Origin: Kocuria coralli
Lineage (GTDB): Bacteria > Actinomycetota > Actinomycetes > Actinomycetales > Micrococcaceae
Length of the DNA stretch: 64,000 nucleotides
NCBI RefSeq assembly: GCF_008831305.1
Contig: NZ_ML708613.1
Coordinates: 124,001-188,000 of the forward strand
Direction of reading: 5' to 3'
Each line of letters starts with the position of its first letter. Position 1 is the stretch's first letter. Made by a program: the position numbers and the translations under genes. Below the pieces are notes generated by a model. It ran no database searches. It had not been told where the DNA came from and worked only from the letters and a program-made list of their open reading frames with translations. Positions 25,774-45,997 of the stretch are shown piece by piece.

Positions 25774-25903
25774 ATGGCATACCGTTGGTGGACATAGGTT
25801 CTACGTAGAGCGCGATCCTCCGCGGCTCCACGCGCATTCCCGGCGGTGACTGCCCGAGTGCCCTGCTCTGTCAGCAGCCCCGGCCGAGACCCAAGGAGCT
25901 CCC

Positions 25904-32120: not shown

Positions 32121-32243
32121 TCAGCCCTGCCTGGCCTTGAAGCGGGGGTTCTTCTTGTTGATCACATAGGTCTTGCCCCGCCGGCGGATGACCTGGGCGC
32201 CGGGCTTGTTCTTGAGCGAGCGCAGGGAGTTCCGGACCTTCAT
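32121..32243 (-). CDS. rpmJ: Zinc-independent ribosomal protein bL36 (type B)
   Basis: This 40-residue ribosomal protein of the large subunit begins [20 protein letters not shown] and contains no cysteine. Normal bL36 holds a zinc ribbon, so this is the cysteine-free paralogue (YkgO type) that replaces it when zinc is short. TAGGAGG precedes the start. A Zur-like box lies 12 bases upstream of the start, shared with the divergent COG0523 gene. Family assignment is secure; regulation is inferred from the box and known biology. Confidence 0.93.
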
Positions 32244-32254
32244 TTGTTCCTCCT

Positions 32255-32273
32255 AATGAGAATGGTTAGCATT
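32255..32273. promoter_or_regulatory. Zur-like (Fur-family) operator
   Basis: AATGAGAATGGTTAGCATT is an imperfect inverted repeat (AATG..AA facing TT..CATT), close to the actinobacterial Zur pattern TGA-AAT-TT-CA. It separates the divergent bL36 type B and COG0523 genes, both classic zinc-limitation genes. Similar sites occur at 39569 and 39636. Confidence 0.65.
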
Positions 32274-32309
32274 TAGGAAGACCATACGCCGTGTGAGAAG
32301 AGGATGCGA

Positions 32310-33338
32310 ATGAAGACGGAGGTCACCGCCGTCGTCGGGGCCTGCGGCCCGGAGCGCCACCGGTACGCGCGCTGGCTCGCGAGGTACTGGGACGCGGAGC
32401 TGATCGCCGCTCGCCACCCGGACCAGGACTGCTCGGCGCTTGAACGCGCCGTCAGGGTCTCCCACGGGCATGCGGCACGGCGGGCGGTGGTGCTGGAGTA
32501 CCCGGTGCAGGTGCCGGCGCTGGAGATCATCGGGGAGATCGTCGACGGGGGCGCGCCCGTGGAGCTCACCGATCTGATCTGCGTCGTCGACGCACCCCAT
32601 CTCATCGCGGACCTGACCTCGACGGAGCGGCTCGATACGGCCGGGCCTGGCGGGCAGGGAGATCCTGCGGCCCGCCTCTGCCGGGGAGAGCTGGTGGTGA
32701 CCCAGATCGAGTACGCCTCAGCGGTGGTCCTGGTCAATGCCGAGCACCTGGGTTCCCAGGAACTGAATCTGCTGCTGAGCCTGATCAGCCACCTGGCCCC
32801 CAAGGCGCAACTGGACGTGGCCACGTCCTCCGCGGGGCCTCCCGCGCGCAGATGGCTGGGCGGATTCCGCAAGGAGCAGACGCAGGCGGGCTGGCTCAGC
32901 CTGCTCAACGACGATTTCCACCCCCGCTTCGAGGACCCCGACGTCGTGTCCTTCAGGTACGAGCAGCTGCGTCCGATGCATCCCGGCCGGTTCTCGGATG
33001 TGATCAGCCGTTTTACGGCCTCCTGCGATGACGGCATGCTGCTGCGCTCGGCCGGTTTCGTCCACCTGGCCACGCGCCCGCACGTCACCGCCCACTGGGA
33101 CCAGGTGGGTGCCCACCTCTCCCTCGCGCCGGCGTGCCTCGATCATGAGCTCTCCGCTGACGACGAGCCCCTGGCGCTGGGCCAGGACCTCGTCCTGATG
33201 GGACTCGGGGTGGATGCCGACCGGCTCGCCGAGGAGCTGGACGGCGCCGCCCTCACGGATCGGGAGCTGACCGCGGGTCCCATGGAGTGGGCCACCTACC
33301 CCGACCCCTTCCCCGGCTGGAGCACGGCCGACCAGTGA
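32310..33338 (+). CDS. COG0523 (CobW-like) protein with degenerate GTPase motifs
   Basis: This 342-residue protein looks like the G3E GTPase family that delivers zinc or other metals. The CobW C-terminal domain is clear (FRYEQLRPMHPGRFSDVISR, then SAGFVHLATRP), and QIEYASAVVLVNAEHLG matches the usual QIE(F/Y)AD-VVLNKxDL region. The P-loop GxxGxGKT is replaced by VVGACGPERHRYA, the Asn-Lys-x-Asp base-recognition motif by VNAEH, and the CxCC zinc motif is missing. GTP hydrolysis as in normal members is therefore unlikely. ATG 32310 is preferred over 32304 because of spacing to GAGG. It shares a Zur-like box with the divergent bL36 gene. Confidence 0.8.
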   Translation: MKTEVTAVVGACGPERHRYARWLARYWDAELIAARHPDQDCSALERAVRVSHGHAARRAVVLEYPVQVPALEIIGEIVDGGAPVELTDLICVVDAPHLIADLTSTERLDTAGPGGQGDPAARLCRGELVVTQIEYASAVVLVNAEHLGSQELNLLLSLISHLAPKAQLDVATSSAGPPARRWLGGFRKEQTQAGWLSLLNDDFHPRFEDPDVVSFRYEQLRPMHPGRFSDVISRFTASCDDGMLLRSAGFVHLATRPHVTAHWDQVGAHLSLAPACLDHELSADDEPLALGQDLVLMGLGVDADRLAEELDGAALTDRELTAGPMEWATYPDPFPGWSTADQ

Positions 33339-36039: not shown

Positions 36040-36597
36040 TCATGACTCGGCGATATGGGTGTGCATGCGCACGCCCTCGTCGTTGAAGATGCTGAGCACC
36101 TGCGCGGGGCGCTCGCCCGCAGCGCTCATCGCGTGGGGAACGTGCGTGTCGAACTCGGCCGCCTCGCCCCGGGTCAGGACCAGGTCCTGTTCGCCCAGCC
36201 GCAGCCTGAGCCTGCCCGACAGGACGTAGAGCCACTCGTAACCCTCGTGCGTCCGCAGCTCCGGCAGCGTGTCGACGGGCGGATACACGATCTTGTACGT
36301 GTGGATCGCGGAGCCCTCCGGGGCCAGCGGGGCGATCGTGAGCCCGTCCCGCTGGATCACCGGCCGGCGCACCCTGGGGTCGGGACTCTCCCGTTGCACG
36401 AGGTCATCGATCCGGATGCCCAGGAGCCGGGTCAGGGGGACCAGGAGTTCCAGCGACGCCTGGCGCTTGCCGGACTCCAGCCTCGACAGGGTGCTCGCCG
36501 ACATCCCGGCTTGCTGCGCCGCCTGTTTCAGGGTCAGGGAACGGGCGTGGCGGGCCGCCCTCAGGCGTGCCCCGACCAGATCGAGCTCGCGGTTCAT
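36040..36597 (-). CDS. XRE-cupin transcriptional regulator
   Basis: This 185-residue regulator has an N-terminal Cro/C1 helix-turn-helix (about residues 7-62, LTLKQAAQQAGMSASTLSRL) and a C-terminal cupin sensor domain (about 110-180, EWLYVLSGRLRLRLGEQ and HVPHAM). It is divergent from the oxidoreductase/methyltransferase fusion, with a candidate operator between them. This pairing is usual for a local regulator. GGAGGG precedes the start. The ligand of the cupin is unknown. Confidence 0.88.
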   Translation of the reverse strand: MNRELDLVGARLRAARHARSLTLKQAAQQAGMSASTLSRLESGKRQASLELLVPLTRLLGIRIDDLVQRESPDPRVRRPVIQRDGLTIAPLAPEGSAIHTYKIVYPPVDTLPELRTHEGYEWLYVLSGRLRLRLGEQDLVLTRGEAAEFDTHVPHAMSAAGERPAQVLSIFNDEGVRMHTHIAES

Positions 36598-36635
36598 CGG
36601 CGTCCCTCCGTTATCCGGTGATCGGCGCTCTTTGC

Positions 36636-36675
36636 CAATTACGCAAATTGTTTTGCCGGTTCATCATCTTACGGT
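36636..36675 (+). promoter_or_regulatory. Promoter and operator of the TrxR-like/methyltransferase gene
   Basis: TTGTTT (36648-36653) and TACGGT (36670-36675) are 16 bases apart. The inverted repeat CAATT-ACGCA-AATTG (36636-36650) overlaps the -35 box, so a repressor bound there, probably the divergent XRE-cupin protein, would block the promoter. Confidence 0.5.
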
Positions 36676-36687
36676 CACACTGGCCGC

Positions 36688-38256
36688 ATGGAGAACATGG
36701 ATTGGGATGTCGTGATCATCGGTGGCAGCGCCGCGGGGCTGAGCGCCGCTCTCATGCTCGGCCGGGCGCGCCGGCGCACGCTCGTGGTCGACGCCGGGAG
36801 CCCCCGCAATCGTTTCGCCGCGCACATGCACGGGGTGCTGGGCAACGAGGGGCGCCCGCCCGCCGAGTTGCTCGAACAGGGCAGGTCGGAGGCCTCGGCC
36901 TACGGGGTGGAGTTCAGGGCCGGAACGGTCGAGCGGGTGGAGGAGGCCGAAGCCGGGGTCGAGGTCCTGCTCCGCGATCAGGGGGTCATCCGCGCCCGGG
37001 CGCTCGTCGTCGCAACCGGCATGTCCGACGAACTTCCCGAGGTCCCGGGCCTGGCCGAGCGCTGGGGGCGGACCGTGCTGCACTGCCCCTACTGCCACGG
37101 CTGGGAGGTGGCCGATCAGCGCCTGGGCGTCCTGGTCACCTCGCCCATGGGCCTGCATCAGGCCCAGCTCGTCCGGCAGTGGAGCGACCGCGTGACCGTG
37201 TTCACCGCGGGGGCCGAACCGCTGGACATGGCCACCGAGTTCCGGCTGCGCTCCCGGGGCGTCGACCTCGTGGCCTCGCCCGTGGAGCAGGTCCTGGGCG
37301 AGTCCGCCGACCGCATCTCGGCAGTACGGACCGCCGACGGTGTACTGACCGAGATCGACGCGCTGTTCGTGGCAGGCCGCCCGCGGCCCCATGACGCCTT
37401 CCTGGGGCACCTCGGACTGGAGACGGCGGATACGCCCATGGGCCGTTTCCTGCAGGTCGATGCGATGGGCAAGACCAGCAGCGATCGCATCTGGGCGATC
37501 GGCAATGTGGTCAACCCGGCCCTGACGGTCCCCATGTGCATGGGCGCGGGCGCCTACACCGGTGGGGCGGTCAACGCTGCGCTGGTCGGCGAGGACTTTG
37601 ATCGGGCCGCCGGGGACCCGGCCAACTGGGCGGATCTGCTGCCGAGCGACTATTGGGAGCACCGGTACACCGCCGCCGACCGGATGTGGTCAGGGCAGGT
37701 CAACCACGTCCTCGCCGGGGTCGCTGCAGACCTGCAGCCCGGATGGGCCCTGGATCTGGGATGCGGGGAGGGCGCGGATGCGATCTGGCTCGCCCGGCAC
37801 GGCTGGACCGCCACGGGGATCGACATCTCCGAGACCGCGATCCGCCGCGCCGCCGAAGCCGCGCGCACCGCGGAGATCCCCGAGGGCCGGATCTCCTTCA
37901 GGGCCGCCGACGTCTCCACGCTCGACGACGAGGCCCGGTACGACCTGGTCACGGCGAGCTTCCTGCATTCGCCGGTCGATCTGCCCCGCACGGAGATCCT
38001 GCGGGCGGCGGCGCAGCGGGTCGCACCGGGCGGGCACCTGCTGATCACCTCCCATGCCACCGTGCCGCCGTGGGGAAACCTGCCGAAGGCGCTCGAGCCG
38101 CGCTTCCTCGGACCGGAGGAGGAGATCGCCGAGCTCGGCCTCGACGCCGGCCAGTGGGCGGTGCGGATCGCCGAGACCCGTCCCCGGGAGGTCACGGGCC
38201 CGCATGGCGACCATGCCACGATCGACGACTCGATCGTGCTGCTCCAGCGCCGCTGA
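36688..38256 (+). CDS. Fusion: thioredoxin-reductase-like flavoprotein plus SAM methyltransferase
   Basis: This 522-residue bifunctional protein has an N-terminal part (about 1-310) like thioredoxin reductase, with FAD motif VVIIGGSAAGLSAAL, redox pair CPYCHG (about residues 133-136) and the C-terminal FAD site WAIGNVVNPA. The C-terminal part (about 330-522) is a class I methyltransferase with motif I ALDLGCGEGADAIWLA and GIDIS. This order recalls the separate GliT-like dithiol oxidase and thiol methyltransferase that inactivate dithiol compounds, so a thiol-modifying or detoxifying role is plausible but unproven. ATG 36688 or 36697 may start it. It is divergent from an XRE-cupin regulator. 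Confidence 0.88.
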   Translation: MENMDWDVVIIGGSAAGLSAALMLGRARRRTLVVDAGSPRNRFAAHMHGVLGNEGRPPAELLEQGRSEASAYGVEFRAGTVERVEEAEAGVEVLLRDQGVIRARALVVATGMSDELPEVPGLAERWGRTVLHCPYCHGWEVADQRLGVLVTSPMGLHQAQLVRQWSDRVTVFTAGAEPLDMATEFRLRSRGVDLVASPVEQVLGESADRISAVRTADGVLTEIDALFVAGRPRPHDAFLGHLGLETADTPMGRFLQVDAMGKTSSDRIWAIGNVVNPALTVPMCMGAGAYTGGAVNAALVGEDFDRAAGDPANWADLLPSDYWEHRYTAADRMWSGQVNHVLAGVAADLQPGWALDLGCGEGADAIWLARHGWTATGIDISETAIRRAAEAARTAEIPEGRISFRAADVSTLDDEARYDLVTASFLHSPVDLPRTEILRAAAQRVAPGGHLLITSHATVPPWGNLPKALEPRFLGPEEEIAELGLDAGQWAVRIAETRPREVTGPHGDHATIDDSIVLLQRR

Positions 38257-38274: not shown

Positions 38275-38730
38275 CTAGCTGGAGCTCCGATCCTCGCTCC
38301 GGTGGATTCTGGGTGGCGCGGTGACGCCGCACCTCGCCTTCGCCAGCGTCGGCGGCAGGACCCGTGCCGGCTGCAGGATCTGCTGCGGGCCTCCGGCGAG
38401 GATCCATGCCTGCAGGGCGCGGAAGCGCTTCTCCTGCTCAAGCCCGGTGAACCAGGCCAGGGGCCCGATCTGGCCGCTCGGCCCGTCCCGGCGCGCGACG
38501 GCGGCCACGCTGGCGAGCTCGCAGCGGCCCAGGCACGGTGAGCTGATCAGCACCGCTCCCCGTGTCTGCCGGATCGTCGAGTGCATCAGGTCGGTCTGAT
38601 CGGGCTGGCCGGTCTGATCGGCGGGCTGGGCGAGGCGTCGCAGGGCGGTGCATCGCGGCCCCATGCACCAGGCCAGGACGGGGCCGCTGGCCTCGGCGTC
38701 CGTCCGTCTCGATCTCTTATCGTCTGTCAC
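38275..38730 (-). CDS. Thioredoxin-like [2Fe-2S] ferredoxin domain protein
   Basis: This 151-residue protein has cysteines spaced as in NuoE-type thioredoxin-fold ferredoxins: C-x4-C in WCMGPRC and C-x3-C in SPCLGRC, the likely four ligands of a [2Fe-2S] cluster. The linker between them has a small duplication (DQTGQPDQT). The C-terminal part is unassigned. GTG 38730 overlaps the stop of the upstream methyltransferase gene by four bases (GTGA), so the two proteins are made together. The pair is under Fur-family-type boxes. It may donate electrons to a metal-release or biosynthetic step; this is inference. Confidence 0.75.
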   Translation of the reverse strand: MTDDKRSRRTDAEASGPVLAWCMGPRCTALRRLAQPADQTGQPDQTDLMHSTIRQTRGAVLISSPCLGRCELASVAAVARRDGPSGQIGPLAWFTGLEQEKRFRALQAWILAGGPQQILQPARVLPPTLAKARCGVTAPPRIHRSEDRSSS

Positions 38731-39554
38731 TGTCTGGTCCTTCCCATGCCTACGAGGGTGGTGGCGTCGACCCGGCCGACCCCGTGGGCGTGCAATCGTT
38801 CGAGATAGTCCTTCCGGACCTGTTCCACCTGACGGTCCCCGAGGTCTGCAAGCAGCGCCCGGAAGCCGGAGCCGATCACCAGGTCCCAGGCCAGATCGTC
38901 CGTGAGCTGTACGGAGTAGGGGCAGGTGGTCACCACCACCTCCTCCAGGCCGCGCTCTTCCAGCCAGCGGGTGAAGACCGGAGGTGTGTCGATCCGGTAG
39001 ATCTCCGCTCGCTCGGCGCGCGTGGCGGCTGCCTCCGCCACCGCCGGGGCGATCGGCTCCACGGCGGCGATGAGGTGGCGCGCCACGGTTTCCATCGCGC
39101 CCTTCTGCCAGATGGTCAGCGCCACGCGCCCGCCCGGACGAGCCTGGGCGAGGAGATGCTCGGTACCGGTGGTCATCTCGGGGAAGAAGAAGATGCCCAG
39201 AACGCATTGCACCAGGTCGTATCCGAAGGGCCGGGGCGGCAATGCCGTGGCGTCGGCGACGGTGAAACGGGCCCAGCCGAGACCCTCGGCAGAGCACCGG
39301 TCCCTGGCGGCGCGGATCTGCCGTTCCGAGGTGTCCACGCCCCATACCGTTCCGGTGGGTCCCACCCGTCGGGCGGCGGGCAGGGCGGAGGCTCCGTTCC
39401 CACAGCAGGCATCCAGCACATGCTCCCCGGGGCGGGGATCCGACAGTGCAACGGTCTCCTGGCTGACGGGCCCCCACAAGGCCGTGTCGAGCCGGTCGAA
39501 CGCCTCCTCGACGTGGTCGAAGGCTCGGCTGTAGTTCTCTTGGGCGGGCACCAT
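38727..39554 (-). CDS. Class I SAM-dependent methyltransferase in metal-responsive operon
   Basis: This 275-residue methyltransferase of the UbiE/MenG-like fold has motif I VLDACCGNGASALPA, motif II YDLVQCVLGIFFFPEM and post-motif ARPGGRVALTIWQKGA. ATG 39554 lies 6 bases after TAGGCT (39561-39566, minus strand), so it is probably leaderless. A Zur-like box starts at 39569 immediately upstream. It is co-translated with a [2Fe-2S] protein and divergent from an Opp-type ABC/MFS operon. A role in making or altering a metal-binding small molecule is attractive, but no classical metallophore synthase is visible. Confidence 0.8.
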   Translation of the reverse strand: MVPAQENYSRAFDHVEEAFDRLDTALWGPVSQETVALSDPRPGEHVLDACCGNGASALPAARRVGPTGTVWGVDTSERQIRAARDRCSAEGLGWARFTVADATALPPRPFGYDLVQCVLGIFFFPEMTTGTEHLLAQARPGGRVALTIWQKGAMETVARHLIAAVEPIAPAVAEAAATRAERAEIYRIDTPPVFTRWLEERGLEEVVVTTCPYSVQLTDDLAWDLVIGSGFRALLADLGDRQVEQVRKDYLERLHAHGVGRVDATTLVGMGRTRQ

Positions 39555-39568
39555 GCGAGCAGCCTAGA

Positions 39569-39583
39569 TGAGAACAATATTCA
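39569..39583. promoter_or_regulatory. Candidate Fur/Zur box upstream of the methyltransferase
   Basis: TGAGAACAATATTCA resembles the Zur pattern. ATGAGAA followed 7 bases later by CA(A/T)T is shared with the site at 32255. It lies where a bound repressor would cover the leaderless -10 region of the methyltransferase gene. Confidence 0.45.
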
Positions 39584-39635
39584 ATAACAAGAGATGCCAC
39601 GTGATGAGCGACACGCCCGTCGTCTTGATAAACGA

Positions 39636-39650
39636 TAATGAGTCTCATTA
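39636..39650. promoter_or_regulatory. Perfect 7-1-7 inverted repeat, Fur-family-type operator
   Basis: TAATGAGTCTCATTA is an exact 7-1-7 inverted repeat, the geometry of Fur, Zur, Nur and PerR boxes. It overlaps a GATAAT -10-like hexamer (39634-39639) and lies 38 bases before the first ABC gene, so it probably controls the transporter operon. Confidence 0.6.
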
Positions 39651-39688
39651 ATCTGTGAGGCAATCAACAATCACGATCAGGGGAAACC

Positions 39689-40504
39689 GTGTCCAGTGAT
39701 GCCGAAGTGGAGGTATCGGATCTCGCCGTCGCTGTGGCGGGCCGCTCCTTGCTGCACGACGTGAGCCTCCGGGTGCGCCCGGGTCAGAGGCTCGCCCTCC
39801 TGGGCGCATCGGGGTCCGGCAAGTCCCTGACGGTGCTGGCCCTGCTCGGCTTGCTGGGGCGGCATTTCGAGGTGAAGGGCTCCCTGAAGGTCGCCGGCCG
39901 TGAGCTGCCCTGGCGCCAGGCCCCTGGCCGGCGCCCCGGGATGGCGGCCGTCTTCCAGGACTCCCAGGCCGCCCTGAACCCCGTGGTGCGCCTTGACCGT
40001 CAGCTCCTTCCCGTGGTGGCCCGGCGACGGCAGGTCGCCACGACCGCCGCGGCGAAGATCGTCCGCGACCTGCTGGAGCAGGTGGGCTTCGAGGACCCGA
40101 CGAGGGTGCTGAGCTCCTACCCCTCCCAGCTCTCGGGCGGCCAGCGGCAGAGGGTGTGCCTGGCGCTGGCCATGGCCGCCTCACCGGGCCTGCTGATCGC
40201 CGACGAACCGACCACTGCGCTGGACATGATCAGCCAGCACCAGGTCGTCCAGGCCCTCCGCGGCTGCACCGGTGAAGGACGGAGCGGGTTGCTGTTCATC
40301 ACCCACGACCTGGCTGTCGCCGCCGACCTCTGCGACGACGTGGTGGTCCTGCAGCACGGCCGGATCGTGGAGACCGGGCCCGTGGAGCAGATCCTCCGCG
40401 CCCCGCAGGCACCGTTCACCGCCTCCCTGGTGGCCGCCGCCCGTGCCGGTGTCCTGCCTGCCGCGGGAGCCCTGGACGCGGTCCCGATGGGTGCGGTCTC
40501 ATGA
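39689..40504 (+). CDS. OppD/NikD-type ABC transporter ATPase
   Basis: This 271-residue ATPase of the peptide/nickel/opine-metallophore importer family has Walker A GASGSGKS, signature LSGGQRQRVCLA and Walker B LLIADEPT. GTG 39689 follows AGGGG. The gene starts a tightly coupled operon with ATGA overlaps to the next ATPase. In staphylopine-type systems the same family (CntD) imports metal-loaded opines. Confidence 0.85.
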   Translation: MSSDAEVEVSDLAVAVAGRSLLHDVSLRVRPGQRLALLGASGSGKSLTVLALLGLLGRHFEVKGSLKVAGRELPWRQAPGRRPGMAAVFQDSQAALNPVVRLDRQLLPVVARRRQVATTAAAKIVRDLLEQVGFEDPTRVLSSYPSQLSGGQRQRVCLALAMAASPGLLIADEPTTALDMISQHQVVQALRGCTGEGRSGLLFITHDLAVAADLCDDVVVLQHGRIVETGPVEQILRAPQAPFTASLVAAARAGVLPAAGALDAVPMGAVS

Positions 40505-41280
40505 GCGTGGGCGCAGAGCCGGAGGCGACCTCACTGCGCGGTATCGATCTCTCCCGGACGTTCCGCAGCCGCTCCCGGGTGGTGGCCGCCGTGGAGGACG
40601 TGGATATCGCCGTGCTCGAAGGCGAGTCCCTGGGTCTGGTCGGCCCTTCGGGATCCGGCAAATCGACCCTGCTCTCCCTGCTGCTCGGGACGGAGCGCCC
40701 CGACCGAGGCGAAGTCCTGTTCAACGGCGCTCCCCTGGTCGGCCGCCAGCAGTTGCGCGAGGCCCGGCAGGCCGTGCAGTTCATCCCGCAGGATCCAGCC
40801 TCCAGCCTGGACCCCCGGCGCACCGTCGAACACCAGCTGCGGGAGCCGCTGCGGCGCTTCGGCATCGAGGGCGACCACAAGAGCCTGGTCCAGGATGCTC
40901 TGGAGCAGGTCGGACTCGTGACGGGGTACCTGGGCAGGCGCGCTCACGAGCTCTCCGGCGGACAGGCCCAGCGCGTCGCCATGGCGCGCGCCCTGGTGAC
41001 CAGACCCCGGATCCTGCTGGCCGACGAGGCGGTCAGCGGGCTCGACCTCCCTCTGCGCAATCAGGTGCTGGACCTCCTGAAACAGCTGCACGCCCGGGAC
41101 GGCCTGGGCCTCCTGTTCATCTCCCACGACCTCACGGCGATCCACCAGCTGTGTCAGCGCGCCCTGGTGTTCGACCACGGGCGGGTTGTGGAGGAGGGGC
41201 CCACCTCCGAACTGTTCTACCGGCCCGCTCACCCCACGACGCAGGAGCTGGTGGATGCCATTCCGCTCCTACCCGCGTGA
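40501..41280 (+). CDS. OppF/NikE-type ABC transporter ATPase
   Basis: This 259-residue second ATPase has Walker A GPSGSGKST, signature LSGGQAQRVAMA, Walker B ILLADEAVSGLD and a switch histidine in FISHDLT. It overlaps the upstream gene by four bases and the MFS gene by 26. With OppD it forms the heterodimeric motor of the importer. The peptide-type C-terminal cluster-binding extension is short. Confidence 0.86.
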   Translation: MSVGAEPEATSLRGIDLSRTFRSRSRVVAAVEDVDIAVLEGESLGLVGPSGSGKSTLLSLLLGTERPDRGEVLFNGAPLVGRQQLREARQAVQFIPQDPASSLDPRRTVEHQLREPLRRFGIEGDHKSLVQDALEQVGLVTGYLGRRAHELSGGQAQRVAMARALVTRPRILLADEAVSGLDLPLRNQVLDLLKQLHARDGLGLLFISHDLTAIHQLCQRALVFDHGRVVEEGPTSELFYRPAHPTTQELVDAIPLLPA

Positions 41281-42555
41281 GACCCGCGCCCTGTTGGGGG
41301 CGCAACTGATCTTCAACCTCGGGTTCTACGCGGTGGTTCCGTTCCTCGCGGGAGCCATGGCCTCCGAGTTCGGCATGACCGCCGCGGCGATCGGGATCGT
41401 GCTGGGCGCCCGGACCTTCAGCCAGCAGGGCATGTTCCTGATCGGCGGCCTGCTGGCCGACCGATGGGGAGCCCGCCGGTCCATCCTGGCGGGCTGCCTG
41501 GTGCGCATCGCGGGTTACGCGGTACTGCTCGGGGCCGCAGATTTCACCCTGTTCCTGATCGGGGCGGTGCTCACCGGCGTCGGCGGGGCCTGTTCTCCCC
41601 GGCGCTGGAGGCGCAGCTGTCGCATGCCGACGATCCCACCGGCCCGTCCCGCGGCACGTCGGGGCGCCGTTCGGTGTTCGTGTGGCTGGCGATCATCGGG
41701 GAGGTAGGGGCGGTCGTCGGCCCGGTGCTGGGCTCGGCCCTCCTGGGCTGGGGGCTGGATGCCGCGCTGACCGCCGGTATCGCCGTGTTCAGCGCGGTCA
41801 CGGTTCTGCTGTGGTGGCGTCTGCCCGCTGAGCCCCGGCGTCCTCGCCGGCCCGAGAACACCCCCGACGACGGCGCGCCGGAGTCCGGCTGGATACCCGC
41901 ATGCCTGCGCACCCCGCGGTTCGTGCTCTTCTGCGCGCTGGTCTCGGTCAACCTGCTGGCCTACAACCAGCTCTACTTCGCGATTCCGGTGGAACTGGAG
42001 CGGCGAGGACTGGCCCCCGAATGGCTCGGGGCGCTGTTCCTGCTCGCCTCGCTTCTCACCCTGTCCCTCCAGCTGCCGGTGGCGGCCGCTGCGCGCCGGA
42101 TCGGACCCGGAGCCACACTGGCGGGCGGATTCGGCTTGGTGGGAGCCGCCTTCGTGGTCCTGGCAGGGCTCTCCGACCACACAGGCGACGGAGCGCCGAG
42201 TGCCGTGATGCCCGTGGCCGTCACCGTCGCGGTGCTGGTCCTGGGACACATGATGATCACGCCGACCGTCCTCTCGCTGGTCCCCACCTTCATCCCCGCC
42301 CGGCACGGGGCCTCCTGCCGTGGCGCCTATTACGGCCTGGTGGCCACCTGCGGCGGAGTGGCCGTGCTGGCCGGCAACGTCGTCCTGGGCCGGCTGGTGG
42401 ACGCCGTCGATCTCCACCACTGGTGGGCGGGGCTGCCCTGGACCCCGCTGGTGCTGCTCGCGCTGCTCTCCGCCGTCGCCCTTCCCTGGGTGCTGCCCGC
42501 CGTCCGGGCACCCGAGCCCACCACCCAAGAACTCACCGTCTCGTCCTCTCAATGA
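41255..42555 (+). pseudogene. MdtH/CntE-like MFS exporter with a 1-base deletion
   Basis: The product is a 12-helix DHA1-type MFS transporter of about 433 residues once one base is restored. The reading frame breaks at about 41589-41591 (GGGGCCTG, expected GGGGCCCTG): the N-terminal part ends in LTGVGGA and the rest continues as LFSPALEAQL in another frame. RTFSQQGMFLIGGLLADRWG is characteristic of MdtH-like exporters, the class that includes metallophore exporters. ATG 41255 overlaps the ATPase gene. The indel may be a sequencing error in a G/C run; if real, the protein is truncated after about 113 residues. Confidence 0.75.
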
Positions 42556-42584
42556 CGCGCCGTCCCGATACGCGCCGTCCCGAT
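42555..42584 (+). repeat. Exact 15-bp tandem duplication
   Basis: ACGCGCCGTCCCGAT is present twice in direct tandem (42555-42569, 42570-42584) in the spacer between the MFS and binding-protein genes. The first base is the last base of the MFS stop codon. Confidence 0.85.
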
Positions 42585-42638
42585 ACTCACTGTCTCCAAC
42601 GCACTGTCCCCATGACACACCACGGAAAGGACCCTCTG

Positions 42639-44168
42639 ATGTCCGCACGATCCTCCCTGTCCTCCCGCCGCGCCACCTCCGCTACGGCGCTGTCGGTCGC
42701 CGCTCTGCTGCTGCTCACCGGCTGCTTCTCCGGCGGCTCCTCCGGTGACGGCAGCACCGACGAAAGGGTCGAGCTGGCCATGCTGCAGCCGCCGCGCTCG
42801 GGGCTGTCGCCCTTGAGCGACGACGCCTTCAAGCTGTCGCGCTGGTCGACCGCCGAGACGCTCATCCGCCTCGATGAGGAGGGCAACGCCGAGCCCATGC
42901 TGGCCACGGAATGGGAACAGGTCGACGACACCACCTGGTCCTTCACCCTGCGCGACGGCGTCACCTTCCACGACGGGACCGAGATGACCACGGAGAACGT
43001 CGTCGAGTCCCTGACCCACGCCGTGGAGGCGGAGCCGGCCCCGCGCATCCTCGATGGCGTCGAGATGACCGTGACCGCCGACGGCGACAAGGTGCTGGTC
43101 ACCACGGCCGAGGAGGACCCGCTGGTGCCGCAGCGTCTGTCCAGCCCGCAGCTTTCGGTCCTCGCCCCGGCCGCCTACGAAGGCGACGCCGTGACGCCGG
43201 TCGGTCACGGTACGGGACCCTTCGAGCTCACCGCCGTGGACGGCACCTCCGGTGCGACCCTGGAGCGCTACGAGGACTACTGGGGCGATCCGGCGACCTC
43301 CGCGGGCATCGACGTCTCCTTCGTCCCCGACGGCACGGCGCGCGCCGCGGCGCTGCGCACCGGTGAGGCCGACGTCGTGGAGGCGGTCCCGGTCGGCCAG
43401 GCCGCTCAGGTCGACGAGGAACTGCTGGAGGAGGTGCCCATGCCGCGCACCAACACCCTGTACCTCAATACGGAGAAGGGCCCCTTCGCCGACGCCGGCC
43501 TGCGGGCGGCGGCCAGGGAGGCCATCGACCCGCAGTCCATCGTGGACGGCGTCTACGAGAGCCGCGCCGACGTGGCCTCGGGCCTGCTCGGACCTGCCAT
43601 CCCCTACGCCGCGGAGGGCAGGGATACCGACACCTATCGCGAACTGCTCGACGGGCGGGCGGAGGCCGGCGACCCGCAGGGGCAGAAGATCACGATCGGG
43701 ACCTTCACCGACCGCGCGGAGCTGCCCGAGGTGGCCGTCCAGCTGCAGCAGCAGCTGGAGGCCGCCGGGTTCGAGGTCGAGCTGGAGGTCCGCGAGTACC
43801 AGTACATCGAGTCCGATGCCATCGACGGGGACTTCGACGCCTTCATCCTTTCCCGCGCCACCGTGCTGGACTCGGGGGATCCGGTGGCCTACATGGTCAG
43901 CGACTTCGGCTGCGAGGGCTCCTTCAACATCTCGCAGTTCTGCTCCGAGACCGTCGAGGCCGCCCTTGACCGGGCGGAGGGGGCGACTCCGGGCGAAGAA
44001 CGCCAGGAGGCCATCCTGGAGGCGGAGGCCACGATCCTCGCCGAGGATGCGGCGATCCCCATGCTCCACGAACGCGTCATCCAGGGCGAGCAGGACGGCG
44101 TCGAGGGCGCCGCACGCGACCCGCGCGAGCGCGAGCTCATCACCGCGCAGACCACCCTCGCCCGATGA
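42639..44168 (+). CDS. Opp/Nik/Cnt-type substrate-binding lipoprotein
   Basis: This 509-residue family 5 extracellular solute-binding protein has a signal peptide and lipobox (ALLLLTGC) anchoring it outside the membrane. Typical motifs are WSFTLRDGVTFHDGTEMTTE and GPFELTAVD. The ligand could be a peptide, a nickel chelate or an opine-type metallophore; residues that would decide this cannot be judged here. GGAAAGG precedes ATG 42639. A 15-bp tandem repeat sits in the 83-base gap after the MFS gene. It is coupled to the permease through an ATGA overlap. Confidence 0.87.
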   Translation: MSARSSLSSRRATSATALSVAALLLLTGCFSGGSSGDGSTDERVELAMLQPPRSGLSPLSDDAFKLSRWSTAETLIRLDEEGNAEPMLATEWEQVDDTTWSFTLRDGVTFHDGTEMTTENVVESLTHAVEAEPAPRILDGVEMTVTADGDKVLVTTAEEDPLVPQRLSSPQLSVLAPAAYEGDAVTPVGHGTGPFELTAVDGTSGATLERYEDYWGDPATSAGIDVSFVPDGTARAAALRTGEADVVEAVPVGQAAQVDEELLEEVPMPRTNTLYLNTEKGPFADAGLRAAAREAIDPQSIVDGVYESRADVASGLLGPAIPYAAEGRDTDTYRELLDGRAEAGDPQGQKITIGTFTDRAELPEVAVQLQQQLEAAGFEVELEVREYQYIESDAIDGDFDAFILSRATVLDSGDPVAYMVSDFGCEGSFNISQFCSETVEAALDRAEGATPGEERQEAILEAEATILAEDAAIPMLHERVIQGEQDGVEGAARDPRERELITAQTTLAR

Positions 44169-45997
44169 GCGGACGGGGGTGGGCCGCGGCCCTGATCTCG
44201 CGCGTCGCGGCTTTCGCCGCCGTGGTGGTGCTCATCGGCTCCCTGCCGTGGCTGTCGGGCAACAGCCCGGAGTACACGATCCTGCGCGCCCGCTACGCCG
44301 ACCGGGAGGCCACGCCTGAGGTCCTGGCCCAGATCCGGGGCGAGCTGGGGCTGGACCGCGGCCCGATCGCGGTCTTCGCGGACTGGGCGTCCGGAGTCTT
44401 CACGGGGGACTTCGGCACCTCCTGGATCAGCGGCCGCCCGGTGCTGCCCGGGATGCTCGAGGCGCTGGGGGTCTCCCTGACGCTGATGGGCGCGGCCCTG
44501 ACGGTGGCCCTGTGCATGGCGGCGCTGCTGTGCCTGCCCGTCCTGCGGGCGGGGCTGGCAGGGCGTCCGTCGCGCGGCTCGGGTGCGGCCGCGGCCGCCC
44601 TCACCGCCCTCCCGGAGTTCCTTCTGGCCGCGGTGCTGCTGGTGATCGTGGCCGTATGGCTGAACTGGCTTCCTCCCTACGGATGGCGCGGGATCGAGTA
44701 CGCGATCCTGCCTGCCCTCGCGCTGGGGCTGCCCGGTGGCGGGCTGATCGGCCGACTGGTGGCCACCGCCGTCGCCGGAGTCTTCACGGAACGGTGGGTG
44801 CACACCTGGGCGGTGGCCGGGCACTCCCGGGCCCGCATCGCGCTCGCCGTGCTGCATCGCGCCATGAGCGGCGTGGTCGGTCAGGTCGCCCTGGTCGTGG
44901 TCGGGCTCACCGGCGGCGCCGTGGCGGTCGAGGAGGTCTTCGCCGTCCCAGGGCTGGGCCGCGCGCTGCTCGGTGCCGCAGCCTCGCAGGACATCCCCAC
45001 CCTGCAGGCGGGCGTCCTGCTGCTGCTCCTGCTCGCCGCGGTCTGCGGCGGGGCGGCGGCACTGATCCGCAGATCGCTGCTCGGTCCGGCCGGCCGGTCG
45101 GGACACCTTCCGGTCCCGGGGCCGCCCCTGAGTCCCCGGCGGACGTGGTGGCTGGTCCCGGCGATCTCGGGTGGGGCTCTCCTGGCGCTGATCGTGGCCG
45201 GCCTGATGCGCGACCCCTACGGCTCCGTGTACGGCAGGCTCCAGTCCCCGTCGTGGGCGCTGCCCCTGGGCGCCGACGCCTCGGGGCGGGACGTCCTGGC
45301 CCGCGTGGGCCACGGTGCCGTGGACACCCTCGGCCTGGCACTGGCTGTGACCGCGGCGTGCCTGGTGATCGGCCTGATCATCGGGCTCACGGGGGCCTGG
45401 TCCACCGGCCCGGTCGAAGTCACCAACGCGGCGCCGCCCATCATCGCAGGCATCCTCGTGGTGGCCATCTCCGGCCCGTCCGCGGCTGGGGCCGCCGTCG
45501 CGGTGACCGCCGTGAGCTGGGCACCGCTGGCCGCGCACACCGCCGCCCTGGTCGCGGAGATCTCGGCGAGGCCGTACGTCCGGAGCCTGCCGCAGCTGGG
45601 CGTCAGCCGGGCCCGGATCCTGGTCGGCACCGTCCTCCCGGCGCTCCTGCCCGAGGTGACCCGGCACGCGCTCCTACGGCTGCCGGGCATCGCGCTCGCG
45701 CTCGCCGCCCTGGGCTTCCTCGGTCTCGGACCGCAGCCGCCCGCTCCGGAGTGGGGCCTGCTGCTGGCCGAGGGCATCGGTTACGTGGAACGCGCCCCCT
45801 GGACCGTGCTCGGGCCGGCGTGCGCCCTCGTGCTGGCCTCCGTCCTGGCGGTGTCCCTCTCGAGCGCCGACGGCGGCCGGAACCTGCGCCCGGCCTCGGA
45901 CCTGCCGGCTCCGGATGCCGAGCCTGATGACGGGCAGAAGCCCCCTCGCGTGACTGACGGGGCCGGGCAGCATTCGGAGGCGCTGGCCGGGCGGTAG
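44165..45997 (+). CDS. Fused OppB-OppC-type ABC permease
   Basis: This 610-residue protein contains both membrane subunits of a peptide/nickel-type importer. The first half ends with the DppB signature VEEVFAVPGLGRALLGAA. The second begins near residue 340 and has the DppC signature PLGADASGRDVLARVG and the EAA-type region LPQLGVSRARILV. About twelve transmembrane segments are expected. Normal systems have two separate genes. The start overlaps the binding-protein stop by four bases. The last 60 residues are polar and unassigned. Confidence 0.87.
   Translation: MSGRGWAAALISRVAAFAAVVVLIGSLPWLSGNSPEYTILRARYADREATPEVLAQIRGELGLDRGPIAVFADWASGVFTGDFGTSWISGRPVLPGMLEALGVSLTLMGAALTVALCMAALLCLPVLRAGLAGRPSRGSGAAAAALTALPEFLLAAVLLVIVAVWLNWLPPYGWRGIEYAILPALALGLPGGGLIGRLVATAVAGVFTERWVHTWAVAGHSRARIALAVLHRAMSGVVGQVALVVVGLTGGAVAVEEVFAVPGLGRALLGAAASQDIPTLQAGVLLLLLLAAVCGGAAALIRRSLLGPAGRSGHLPVPGPPLSPRRTWWLVPAISGGALLALIVAGLMRDPYGSVYGRLQSPSWALPLGADASGRDVLARVGHGAVDTLGLALAVTAACLVIGLIIGLTGAWSTGPVEVTNAAPPIIAGILVVAISGPSAAGAAVAVTAVSWAPLAAHTAALVAEISARPYVRSLPQLGVSRARILVGTVLPALLPEVTRHALLRLPGIALALAALGFLGLGPQPPAPEWGLLLAEGIGYVERAPWTVLGPACALVLASVLAVSLSSADGGRNLRPASDLPAPDAEPDDGQKPPRVTDGAGQHSEALAGR

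Follow-up and report, generated by a model that had tools for sequence, protein, structure and literature searches.

The window analysed here, 64,000 nucleotides from Kocuria coralli, contains a locus of two divergent units that share one promoter region (Table 1). The importer set encoded in the rightward unit is complete by sequence, with a family 5 lipoprotein, two permease domains and two ATPases. The lipid site of the lipoprotein reads LTGC, and the two permease domains are fused into one protein, NikB-like at residues about 19–298 and NikC-like at about 355–565. A preliminary description of the locus had listed these genes together with an MFS exporter, mostly joined by 4-base overlaps. 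The two ATPases, the lipoprotein and the fused permease are present as described, but the MFS gene is split across frames. Overlaps of 4 bases occur at three junctions only ([2Fe-2S]/methyltransferase, ATPase 1/ATPase 2 and lipoprotein/permease), while ATPase 2 and the MFS gene overlap by 26 bases and a gap of 83 bases separates the MFS gene from the lipoprotein gene.

Table 1. Features of the locus and of the neighbouring presumed Zur regulon (positions in the window).
Feature	Position	Strand	Remark
Cysteine-free bL36 paralog	32121..32243	-	presumed Zur regulon; outside main locus
Zur-type site TGAGAATGGTTAGCA	32257..32271	.	between bL36 and COG0523 genes
COG0523/CobW_C-type protein	32304..33338	+	presumed Zur regulon; outside main locus
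Small [2Fe-2S] ferredoxin-type protein, thioredoxin-like	38275..38730	-	GTG start; C22, C27, C66, C70
Class I SAM methyltransferase, Methyltransf_25, UbiE-like	38727..39554	-	profile matches; accessory
Divergent promoter region	39555-39688		134 bases; two Zur-type 7-1-7 sites
Zur-type site TGAGAACAATATTCA	39569..39583	.	2 mismatches; just 5' of methyltransferase start codon
Zur-type site CGATAATGAGTCTCA	39633..39650	.	2 mismatches; overlaps perfect repeat TAATGAGTCTCATTA
Opp/Nik-type ABC ATPase 1, NikD-like	39689..40504	+	GTG start
Opp/Nik-type ABC ATPase 2, NikE-like	40501..41280	+	profile matches
MFS transporter gene, MdtH-like	41255..42555	+	frame interrupted near 41590
Family 5 solute-binding lipoprotein, Opp5A/NikA-like	42639..44168	+	core of conserved family
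Fused two-domain ABC permease	44165..45997	+	NikB-like + NikC-like

The perfect 7-1-7 repeat reported earlier between the two units is found at 39636-39650. Where a Zur-like site was also reported, there are two predicted Zur-type 7-1-7 sites, at 39569 and 39633, each with two mismatches to TGANAATNATTNTCA; such sites are conserved in relatives. The site at 39633 is similar to TGAGAATGAAACTCATTA, the box seen in genus relatives. With two mismatches allowed, TGANAATNATTNTCA occurs at 21 places in the genome compared to 4 for the reversed control, and the best site of the locus promoter surpasses shuffled sequences with p=0.005. The repeat is the sole exact match to TAATGAGNCTCATTA in the 3.43-Mb genome, where the next best match has two mismatches; with up to three mismatches this pattern is not enriched genome-wide (5 places, 12 for the reversed control). 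We predict with good confidence that the Fur-family regulator of the locus is Zur.

The only perfect box in the genome, TGACAATCATTATCA, precedes a ZnuA gene (PF01297), with genes for an ABC ATPase and an ABC-3 permease coming next. The genome has three FUR-family genes, one of them at a distance of about 4 kb from this box. Among the other sites, that on contig C6 precedes an ABC exporter-type gene, possibly split, those on C8 (131402) and C10 (104737) fall within called genes, the C12 site sits between two genes, and at C1:68999 just one 38-residue frame is seen.

Profile matches confirm that the divergent pair includes a class I methyltransferase. The assignment of its partner as a NuoE-like [2Fe-2S] protein is tentative. 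It draws on the cysteine pattern C-x4-C...C-x3-C, with all four cysteines among the invariant columns of a 4-row and a 3-row alignment, and on a below-cut-off match of an Actinoplanes relative to PF01257; for the protein itself, neither Pfam nor NCBIfam gives a match at E 0.001. Relatives of the [2Fe-2S] protein are often encoded near zinc-regulon genes, in several genomes near COG0523 genes. The profiles used for both proteins were partly built from loci that were later found with them (L193, L213, L244 and L245).

With regard to synteny, proposed earlier as a check, the lipoprotein and the fused permease recur, in many loci with boxes, but the methyltransferase does not recur with them. Among five genus copies only the locus analysed here has it, and it was rejected as a conserved part of the locus because it is not a constant partner. 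In 394 genomes of the class, the relatives nearest to it (8 loci, 38-50% identical) have no family lipoprotein or permease in the 7.5-11 kb read, and relatives at 35-38% identity, found in 40 of 149 family genomes, show no synteny in 29 short loci. The methyltransferase neighbouring the transporter in Lentzea is 43% identical, no closer than the 38-50% relatives, so that its adjacency to the transporter may be coincidence. Those of Rhodococcus and Actinoplanes are not alignable with the Kocuria protein (E 0.5, or no match). Class I methyltransferases that cannot be aligned with each other co-occur with the [2Fe-2S] protein in zinc-linked transporter loci of Kocuria, Actinoplanes and Rhodococcus.

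Members of the lipoprotein and fused-permease family occur across many Actinomycetota as well as in Halomonas, Kushneria, Rahnella and Pectobacterium. One scan at E 1e-3 gave relatives in at least 577 stretches, which may include other subfamilies; the best 80 of these, 60-79% identical, were examined. In a 30-row alignment the lipoprotein is 60-81% identical to the Kocuria copy, and this strong conservation suggests a common ligand. Within the open-access literature and the terms searched, neither the fused-permease family nor the ATP-grasp cluster discussed below came up as the subject of a paper. The earlier suggestion of a match to the staphylopine transporter CntA-F could not be upheld at the level of the subunits, which are nearer to Nik/Opp5A models. 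For ATPase 1 the NikD model gives 210 bits, compared with 188 for CntF and 187 for CntD, ATPase 2 has its top score with NikE, and the lipoprotein reaches 212 bits to Opp5A/NikA versus 53 to CntA. None of these Nik/Opp5A scores is at its curated cut-off, and the Cnt scores are far below theirs (CntA 53 of 800 bits, CntF 188 of 385, CntD 187 of 380, CntC 62 of 440). The nickel-chelate proteins also outscore peptide proteins. This argues against a Zur-regulated importer that serves peptide uptake under zinc starvation, with zinc-binding or histidine-rich peptides as possible substrates. We regard such a function as unlikely, even though the transporter family as a whole includes peptide carriers and dipeptide- and oligopeptide-binding proteins are among the solved relatives of the lipoprotein.

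The promoters of relatives were compared at 107 distinct loci, after removal of 4 duplicates (for example, L246 is L153). A mismatch scan with shuffles was used, as a search for perfect palindromes was too strict for these boxes. The best Zur-type site beats the shuffles (p<0.05) in 37 of 42 operons that start with the lipoprotein gene and in 40 of 65 that start with an ATPase gene. The five lipoprotein-first operons lacking a significant site constitute one outlying subfamily, 42-44% identical. The 25 ATPase-first misses comprise 10 gammaproteobacterial loci and 15 of 55 actinobacterial loci with p of 0.05 or more. That the gammaproteobacterial loci are free of boxes was considered and rejected, as another Zur motif is present: all 10 have GTTATANNATAAC-like sites with up to two mismatches at -54 to -68, significant at p<0.05 in 8 (mononucleotide shuffles, 300 each). 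We take GTTATANNATAAC to be the core of the gammaproteobacterial Zur motif. The motif given as TRWNAYRWTATAWYRTNWCA in PMC6103462 is found within two mismatches at just 7 of the 10 loci. On the actinobacterial side, 38 of 70 loci have a match to the published Streptomyces Zur motif with at most one mismatch in their promoter window, compared with 19 matches elsewhere in 1.33 Mb. The promoters of the family carry phylum-specific predicted Zur boxes, one of actinobacterial type and one of differently spelt gammaproteobacterial type. Homologues without an upstream metal box had been named as evidence against a metal chelate; boxes were found in both phyla.

These boxes bear on a second alternative, in which a nickel or cobalt chelate is imported and recognition of the promoter by Zur, or by a different member of the Fur family, is incidental. 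The best scores of the subunits, all to NikA/B/C/D/E or Opp5A/Opp1B/Opp2C models, would fit this, as would the nickel complexes bound by the nearest solved or characterised lipoproteins and the number of FUR-family genes in the genome. Two different Zur boxes upstream of operons of one family nevertheless make it quite improbable. Zinc-regulon genes moreover adjoin the transporter in several genomes; in Actinoplanes these are bL28, bL33 and S14 together with the [2Fe-2S] gene. One related genus locus has an iron-box-like repeat instead of a Zur box, and this indicates that the type of box tracks the subfamily.

For the MFS gene, comparison with an intact relative of 434 amino acids shows that the N-terminal portion, from 41255, is read in one frame and the C-terminal portion, to 42555, in another. 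The interruption may be genuine or may stem from the assembly. An intact MFS gene adjoins the transporter in none of the five genus copies; in each of them the putative exporter is broken, degenerate or absent. A one-frame MFS (aligned over at least 320 residues) is found somewhere in 42 other distinct loci, not always within the operon, and an importer-only system is thus a trait of the genus, not of the family. Given the broken frame, we propose that the Kocuria system acts as importer only. The locus is also unevenly distributed: 4 of 26 other genomes of the genus have orthologs, and 39 of 347 genomes of the order have the fused permease. Together with the interrupted frame, this could also point to an acquired locus that is decaying and non-functional in this strain. 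We hold this to be very improbable, since the remaining genes are open and the lipoprotein retains the columns invariant in its family. Genus relatives without any MFS retain transporter genes and boxes, so that losing the MFS need not mean losing import.

A staphylopine-type opine metallophore system with its biosynthesis genes elsewhere in the genome would have the same transporter classes as CntA-F, including the MFS protein, but is scarcely credible given the low Cnt scores, the interrupted MFS gene and the outcome of two profile searches. Nicotianamine synthase (PF03059, CntL) is silent genome-wide, in line with the earlier remark that no such gene is visible, in a search whose control gave a match in 1 of 14 genomes. 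Staph_opine_DH (PF10100, CntM) has no match in this genome either, a weak result as no control genome gave one. A search with the Rhodococcus-type PALP protein gave two matches, both on contig C18, which is without a Zur-type site; the one at 25832 adjoins putative PLP decarboxylase-like and FAD-type genes. On the basis of these searches a home-made zincophore was rejected. A metallophore made in the locus by a different chemistry, the other earlier proposal, is not supported: no biosynthesis gene is seen, the methyltransferase is inconstant and the putative exporter is impaired or missing throughout the genus copies. Among relatives, Rhodococcus-type biosynthesis genes lie within 5 kb of the transporter in few of 115 loci (111 distinct), with ATP-grasp at 1 and PALP at 3, one of these weak. 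One adenylation-domain motif, the sign of other biosynthesis that was looked for, occurs within 8 kb at 1 of the 111.

We conclude that the locus probably encodes an importer of Nik/Opp type, under the control of Zur, for a zinc chelate that is produced elsewhere. This supports the earlier proposal of uptake of a metal chelate of foreign origin, with its metal setting and Fur-family control, and narrows it to zinc; the metal, the chelate and the direction of import are what the sequences suggest. At low zinc, Zur would leave the divergent promoter, as its boxes indicate, and both units would be transcribed. Judging from its family, the lipoprotein would bind, outside the membrane, a complex of zinc with a small organic chelator, which the ATPases and the fused permease would then carry into the cytoplasm. 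The chelator would come from other organisms or be a common metabolite, with the locus not its maker. In relatives with an intact MFS protein, this protein may return the chelator to the outside once it is empty, or export one that the cell makes itself. More speculatively, the [2Fe-2S] protein is a candidate for release or handover of zinc in the cytoplasm and the methyltransferase for modification of the chelator. It is a long shot that the pair forms an intracellular unloading module, in which alkylation of a donor atom of the chelator by the methyltransferase releases zinc and the [2Fe-2S] protein aids release or handover to COG0523-type GTPases. If true, the mutually unalignable methyltransferases that accompany the [2Fe-2S] protein would mean that metal release via chelator methylation was assembled more than once.

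The importer family is widespread and, judging by its promoters in two phyla, linked to zinc, yet few of the examined copies adjoin genes of the one biosynthetic type searched, the Rhodococcus type. Many soil, plant-associated and salt-loving bacteria have close relatives of the pump. Identifying its ligand would reveal an extracellular zinc chelate common to such bacteria.

Among known systems, the Opp5A/NikA nickel-chelate proteins (SaNikA, PDB 4ofj; nickel-binding protein 3t66) come nearest to the lipoprotein, both among profile models and among solved proteins. In contrast to these, the Kocuria locus has Zur boxes and adjoining zinc genes, and its lipoprotein reaches 212 of 600 bits (NF045468). 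A cluster of ATP-grasp, DUF364-like, PALP, epimerase, MFS, methyltransferase and Opp genes on Rhodococcus plasmids and in Lentzea shares an Opp transporter, an MFS and a methyltransferase with Kocuria, and on the two Rhodococcus plasmids also the same kind of [2Fe-2S] protein. It differs in its lipoprotein subfamily (26-27% identical), its separate permeases, its biosynthesis-type genes and its methyltransferase, which is not alignable with that of Kocuria. The zinc-linked staphylopine system of Staphylococcus aureus (CntABCDF/CntE) likewise combines an Opp-type importer with an MFS exporter. The Kocuria subunits are nearer to Nik, the permease is fused, CntL has no match and the MFS is interrupted, so the comparison holds only as an analogy. 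In Corynebacterium diphtheriae, PMC6711530 and PMC12445094 describe Nik/Opp-type importer loci, dip2162-2165 and dip2125-2128, that are repressed by zinc and Zur, suggest uptake of metallophore-like molecules, and list nik1 among the loci supporting low-zinc growth; the two dip loci are presumably those called nik1 and nik2 in the 2025 paper. They have two separate permease genes and one annotated ATPase gene, and dip2162 is also DtxR-controlled and divergent from sidAB (NRPS/PKS). As NikA/OppA-like actinobacterial ABC loci under Zur, they are a precedent for the function proposed for the Kocuria locus.

We conclude that the locus is most probably a Zur-controlled importer of the Nik/Opp type for a zinc chelate, which in the genus serves import only. 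The zinc control is well supported, and a zinc chelate is the substrate class that we infer. The strongest evidence for the zinc reading is that one importer family stands under two differently spelt Zur boxes.

The locus lies on contig C4 of the 3.43-Mb draft genome, and the region between its two units has a G+C content of 45.5% compared to 69% window-wide. The divergent pair and the transporter set of the preliminary description are present, but the MFS gene is not intact. It consists of two parts in different frames with a switch near 41590, which may be a real lesion or an assembly error. The 151-residue leftward protein, a putative [2Fe-2S] protein, has the cysteine spacing C-x4-C...C-x3-C. 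Adjoining the locus, at 36040-38256, an XRE-cupin regulator is divergent from a thioredoxin-reductase-like/methyltransferase fusion protein.

Features of the locus and Zur-type sites in the window
Feature	Position	Description
Divergent intergenic region	39555-39688	134 bases, separates the two divergent units
Leftward unit		class I methyltransferase and 151-residue protein, genes overlapping by four bases
Rightward unit		two Opp/Nik-type ATPases, MFS gene, family 5 lipoprotein, fused permease
Zur-type site	32257	between cysteine-free bL36 paralog and COG0523 (CobW_C) gene
Zur-type sites	39569 and 39633	both in the divergent promoter of the locus

The 7-1-7 pattern TGANAATNATTNTCA is found with up to 2 mismatches at 21 places in the genome, compared to 4 for the reversed control, and three of these are in the window. 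Its sole perfect match lies upstream of a ZnuA gene, behind which come genes for an ABC ATPase and an ABC-3 permease; one of the three FUR-family genes of the genome is located about 4 kb from this box. The perfect 7-1-7 repeat described earlier is indeed the only exact match to its own pattern in the genome, but that pattern is not enriched when 3 mismatches are allowed (5 places, fewer than 12 for the reversed control). TGANAATNATTNTCA is consistent with the published Streptomyces Zur motifs tGaNNatSatNNtCa and TGAAAATGATTTTCA (PMC5472717, PMC2823685). Actinobacterial Zur regulons are described as including ribosomal paralogs, COG0523 genes and znu genes (PMC2823685). The stretch 32121-33338, where the bL36 paralog and the COG0523 gene share a common site, is presumably another zinc-starvation locus. 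Elsewhere in the genome, a Zur-like site with 1 mismatch (contig C6, 198367; L271) stands just 5' of an ABC exporter-type gene whose reading frame may be broken in two.

Zur-type sites also precede many operons of the relatives. In 107 distinct loci, the best Zur-type site of each promoter was compared with dinucleotide shuffles (p<0.05), and it exceeds them in 37/42 lipoprotein-first and 40/65 ATPase-first operons. Of these 77 sites, 75 fall between 14 and 98 bases before the estimated start, and the other two at -135 and -200. All five lipoprotein-first operons without a significant site (L087-L091) belong to an outlying lipoprotein subfamily, 42-44% identical, in five large genomes. The 25 ATPase-first operons without one comprise 15 actinobacteria and 10 gammaproteobacteria. 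In each of these 10 gammaproteobacterial promoters a GTTATANNATAAC-like site (no more than 2 mismatches) is located between -54 and -68. The site is significant in 8/10 (p<0.05, mononucleotide shuffles), and the published E. coli motif occurs within 2 mismatches in 7/10. The published Streptomyces motif (at most 1 mismatch) is present in the 140-base promoter window of 38/70 actinobacterial loci, with 19 occurrences elsewhere in 1.33 Mb. A related locus of a genus mate, L248 (G837:C1:1816000-1831000), encodes a paralogous Opp transporter and an intact MFS protein, 62-78% identical to the MFS parts of the window. It has no Zur-type site within 2 mismatches; in its place stands the inverted repeat TTAGGTTCCCCTAACCT, which we take to resemble a DtxR-type iron box.

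Orthologs (78-86%) occur in 4/26 other genomes of the genus. Neither the methyltransferase nor an intact MFS gene is found at the locus in any of the four, one of whose contigs spans only 8.6 kb, to which its absences are confined; two are without the MFS gene, one has a degenerate copy and one a remnant. Counting the interrupted frame of the window, an intact MFS gene is present in 0/5 genus copies. Elsewhere in the wider family an exporter or recycler is common, as 42 further distinct loci apart from L248 contain, at some position, an MFS that aligns in a single frame over at least 320 residues. In two of the four orthologs (G837, G831) the [2Fe-2S] gene is divergent from the transporter, and nearby ABC genes are read as znu-type, the one ATPase checked matching PF00005 only. 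A genus mate's contig (L246) is identical in every letter to that of a Kocuria MAG (L153), which gives the genus as Kocuria. By visual inspection, the left flank of this MAG copy (L153, 1-2449) resembles plasmid or phage DNA, and the importer may therefore be carried by mobile elements.

The fused permease is present in 39/347 genomes of the order (21/105 genera). Scanning genomes with an alignment of the lipoprotein gives at least 577 stretches that encode a relative (E 1e-3), of which the best 80 (60-79% identical) were retained. Among these are Streptomyces, Arthrobacter, Nesterenkonia, Nocardiopsis, Clavibacter and Rhodococcus as well as Halomonas, Vreelandella, Kushneria, Rahnella and Pectobacterium.

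The [2Fe-2S] protein has matches in 22/394 class genomes at E 1e-5, the weaker of which look like another family; six outside its own genome reach E 1e-9 or lower. With neighbours named partly from sequence reading without family search, COG0523-like or ZnuA-like genes are near four of these six (G265, G527, G542, G647) and absent nearby in G493 and G661; in G527 and G542 the importer family lies within the same 15 kb. The [2Fe-2S] gene is also near ZnuA-like and COG0523-like genes on the Rhodococcus JS3073 plasmid, and near a CobW_C gene in L064, from a genome of the family. In Actinoplanes utahensis the transporter lies, together with a class I methyltransferase gene, behind bL28, bL33, S14 and the [2Fe-2S] gene. 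Using profiles built partly from sequences they then match, we find within 5 kb of the lipoprotein the [2Fe-2S] protein in 5/115 loci (111 distinct; L194 and L215 weak, ~31 bits) and the methyltransferase in 6/115 (only L193 and L213 >100 bits). Both are therefore accessory genes.

Two Rhodococcus plasmids carry ATP-grasp, DUF364-like, PALP, enolase-type epimerase, MFS, methyltransferase and Opp genes together with the [2Fe-2S] gene. The four enzymes encoded by the JS3073 cluster share 72-91% identity with their pRZP2 counterparts. The cluster adjoins this importer family in Lentzea albidocapillata, from ATP-grasp to permease, and in Lentzea alba for the part covered by its locus. JS3073 and L. 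albidocapillata have Zur-type sites (2 mismatches) close to where the cluster begins, in JS3073 next to a COG0523-like gene, while the 20 kb of plasmid pRZP2 gave none. We regard this cluster (L095, L270, L193, L210) as a candidate zincophore cluster, on which our literature search found no paper. In the Kocuria genome itself, a PALP gene stands beside putative PLP decarboxylase-like and FAD/NAD(P)-binding-type genes (L268, C18:16500-36400), a possible small biosynthetic set; the genome scan gave no TGANAATNATTNTCA site on this contig.

The proposed match of the transporter set to CntA-F is not supported, with Cnt models scoring far below cut-off and Nik and Opp5A models higher, and the NAS family has no match in the genome. 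The locus thus works like a metallophore importer yet does not qualify as a Cnt system by these comparisons. The nearest solved structures to its lipoprotein are nickel-binding proteins. In function, the closest documented system is that of C. diphtheriae, with two Zur-repressed NikA/OppA-like loci for which import of metallophore-like molecules has been proposed (PMC6711530, PMC12445094).
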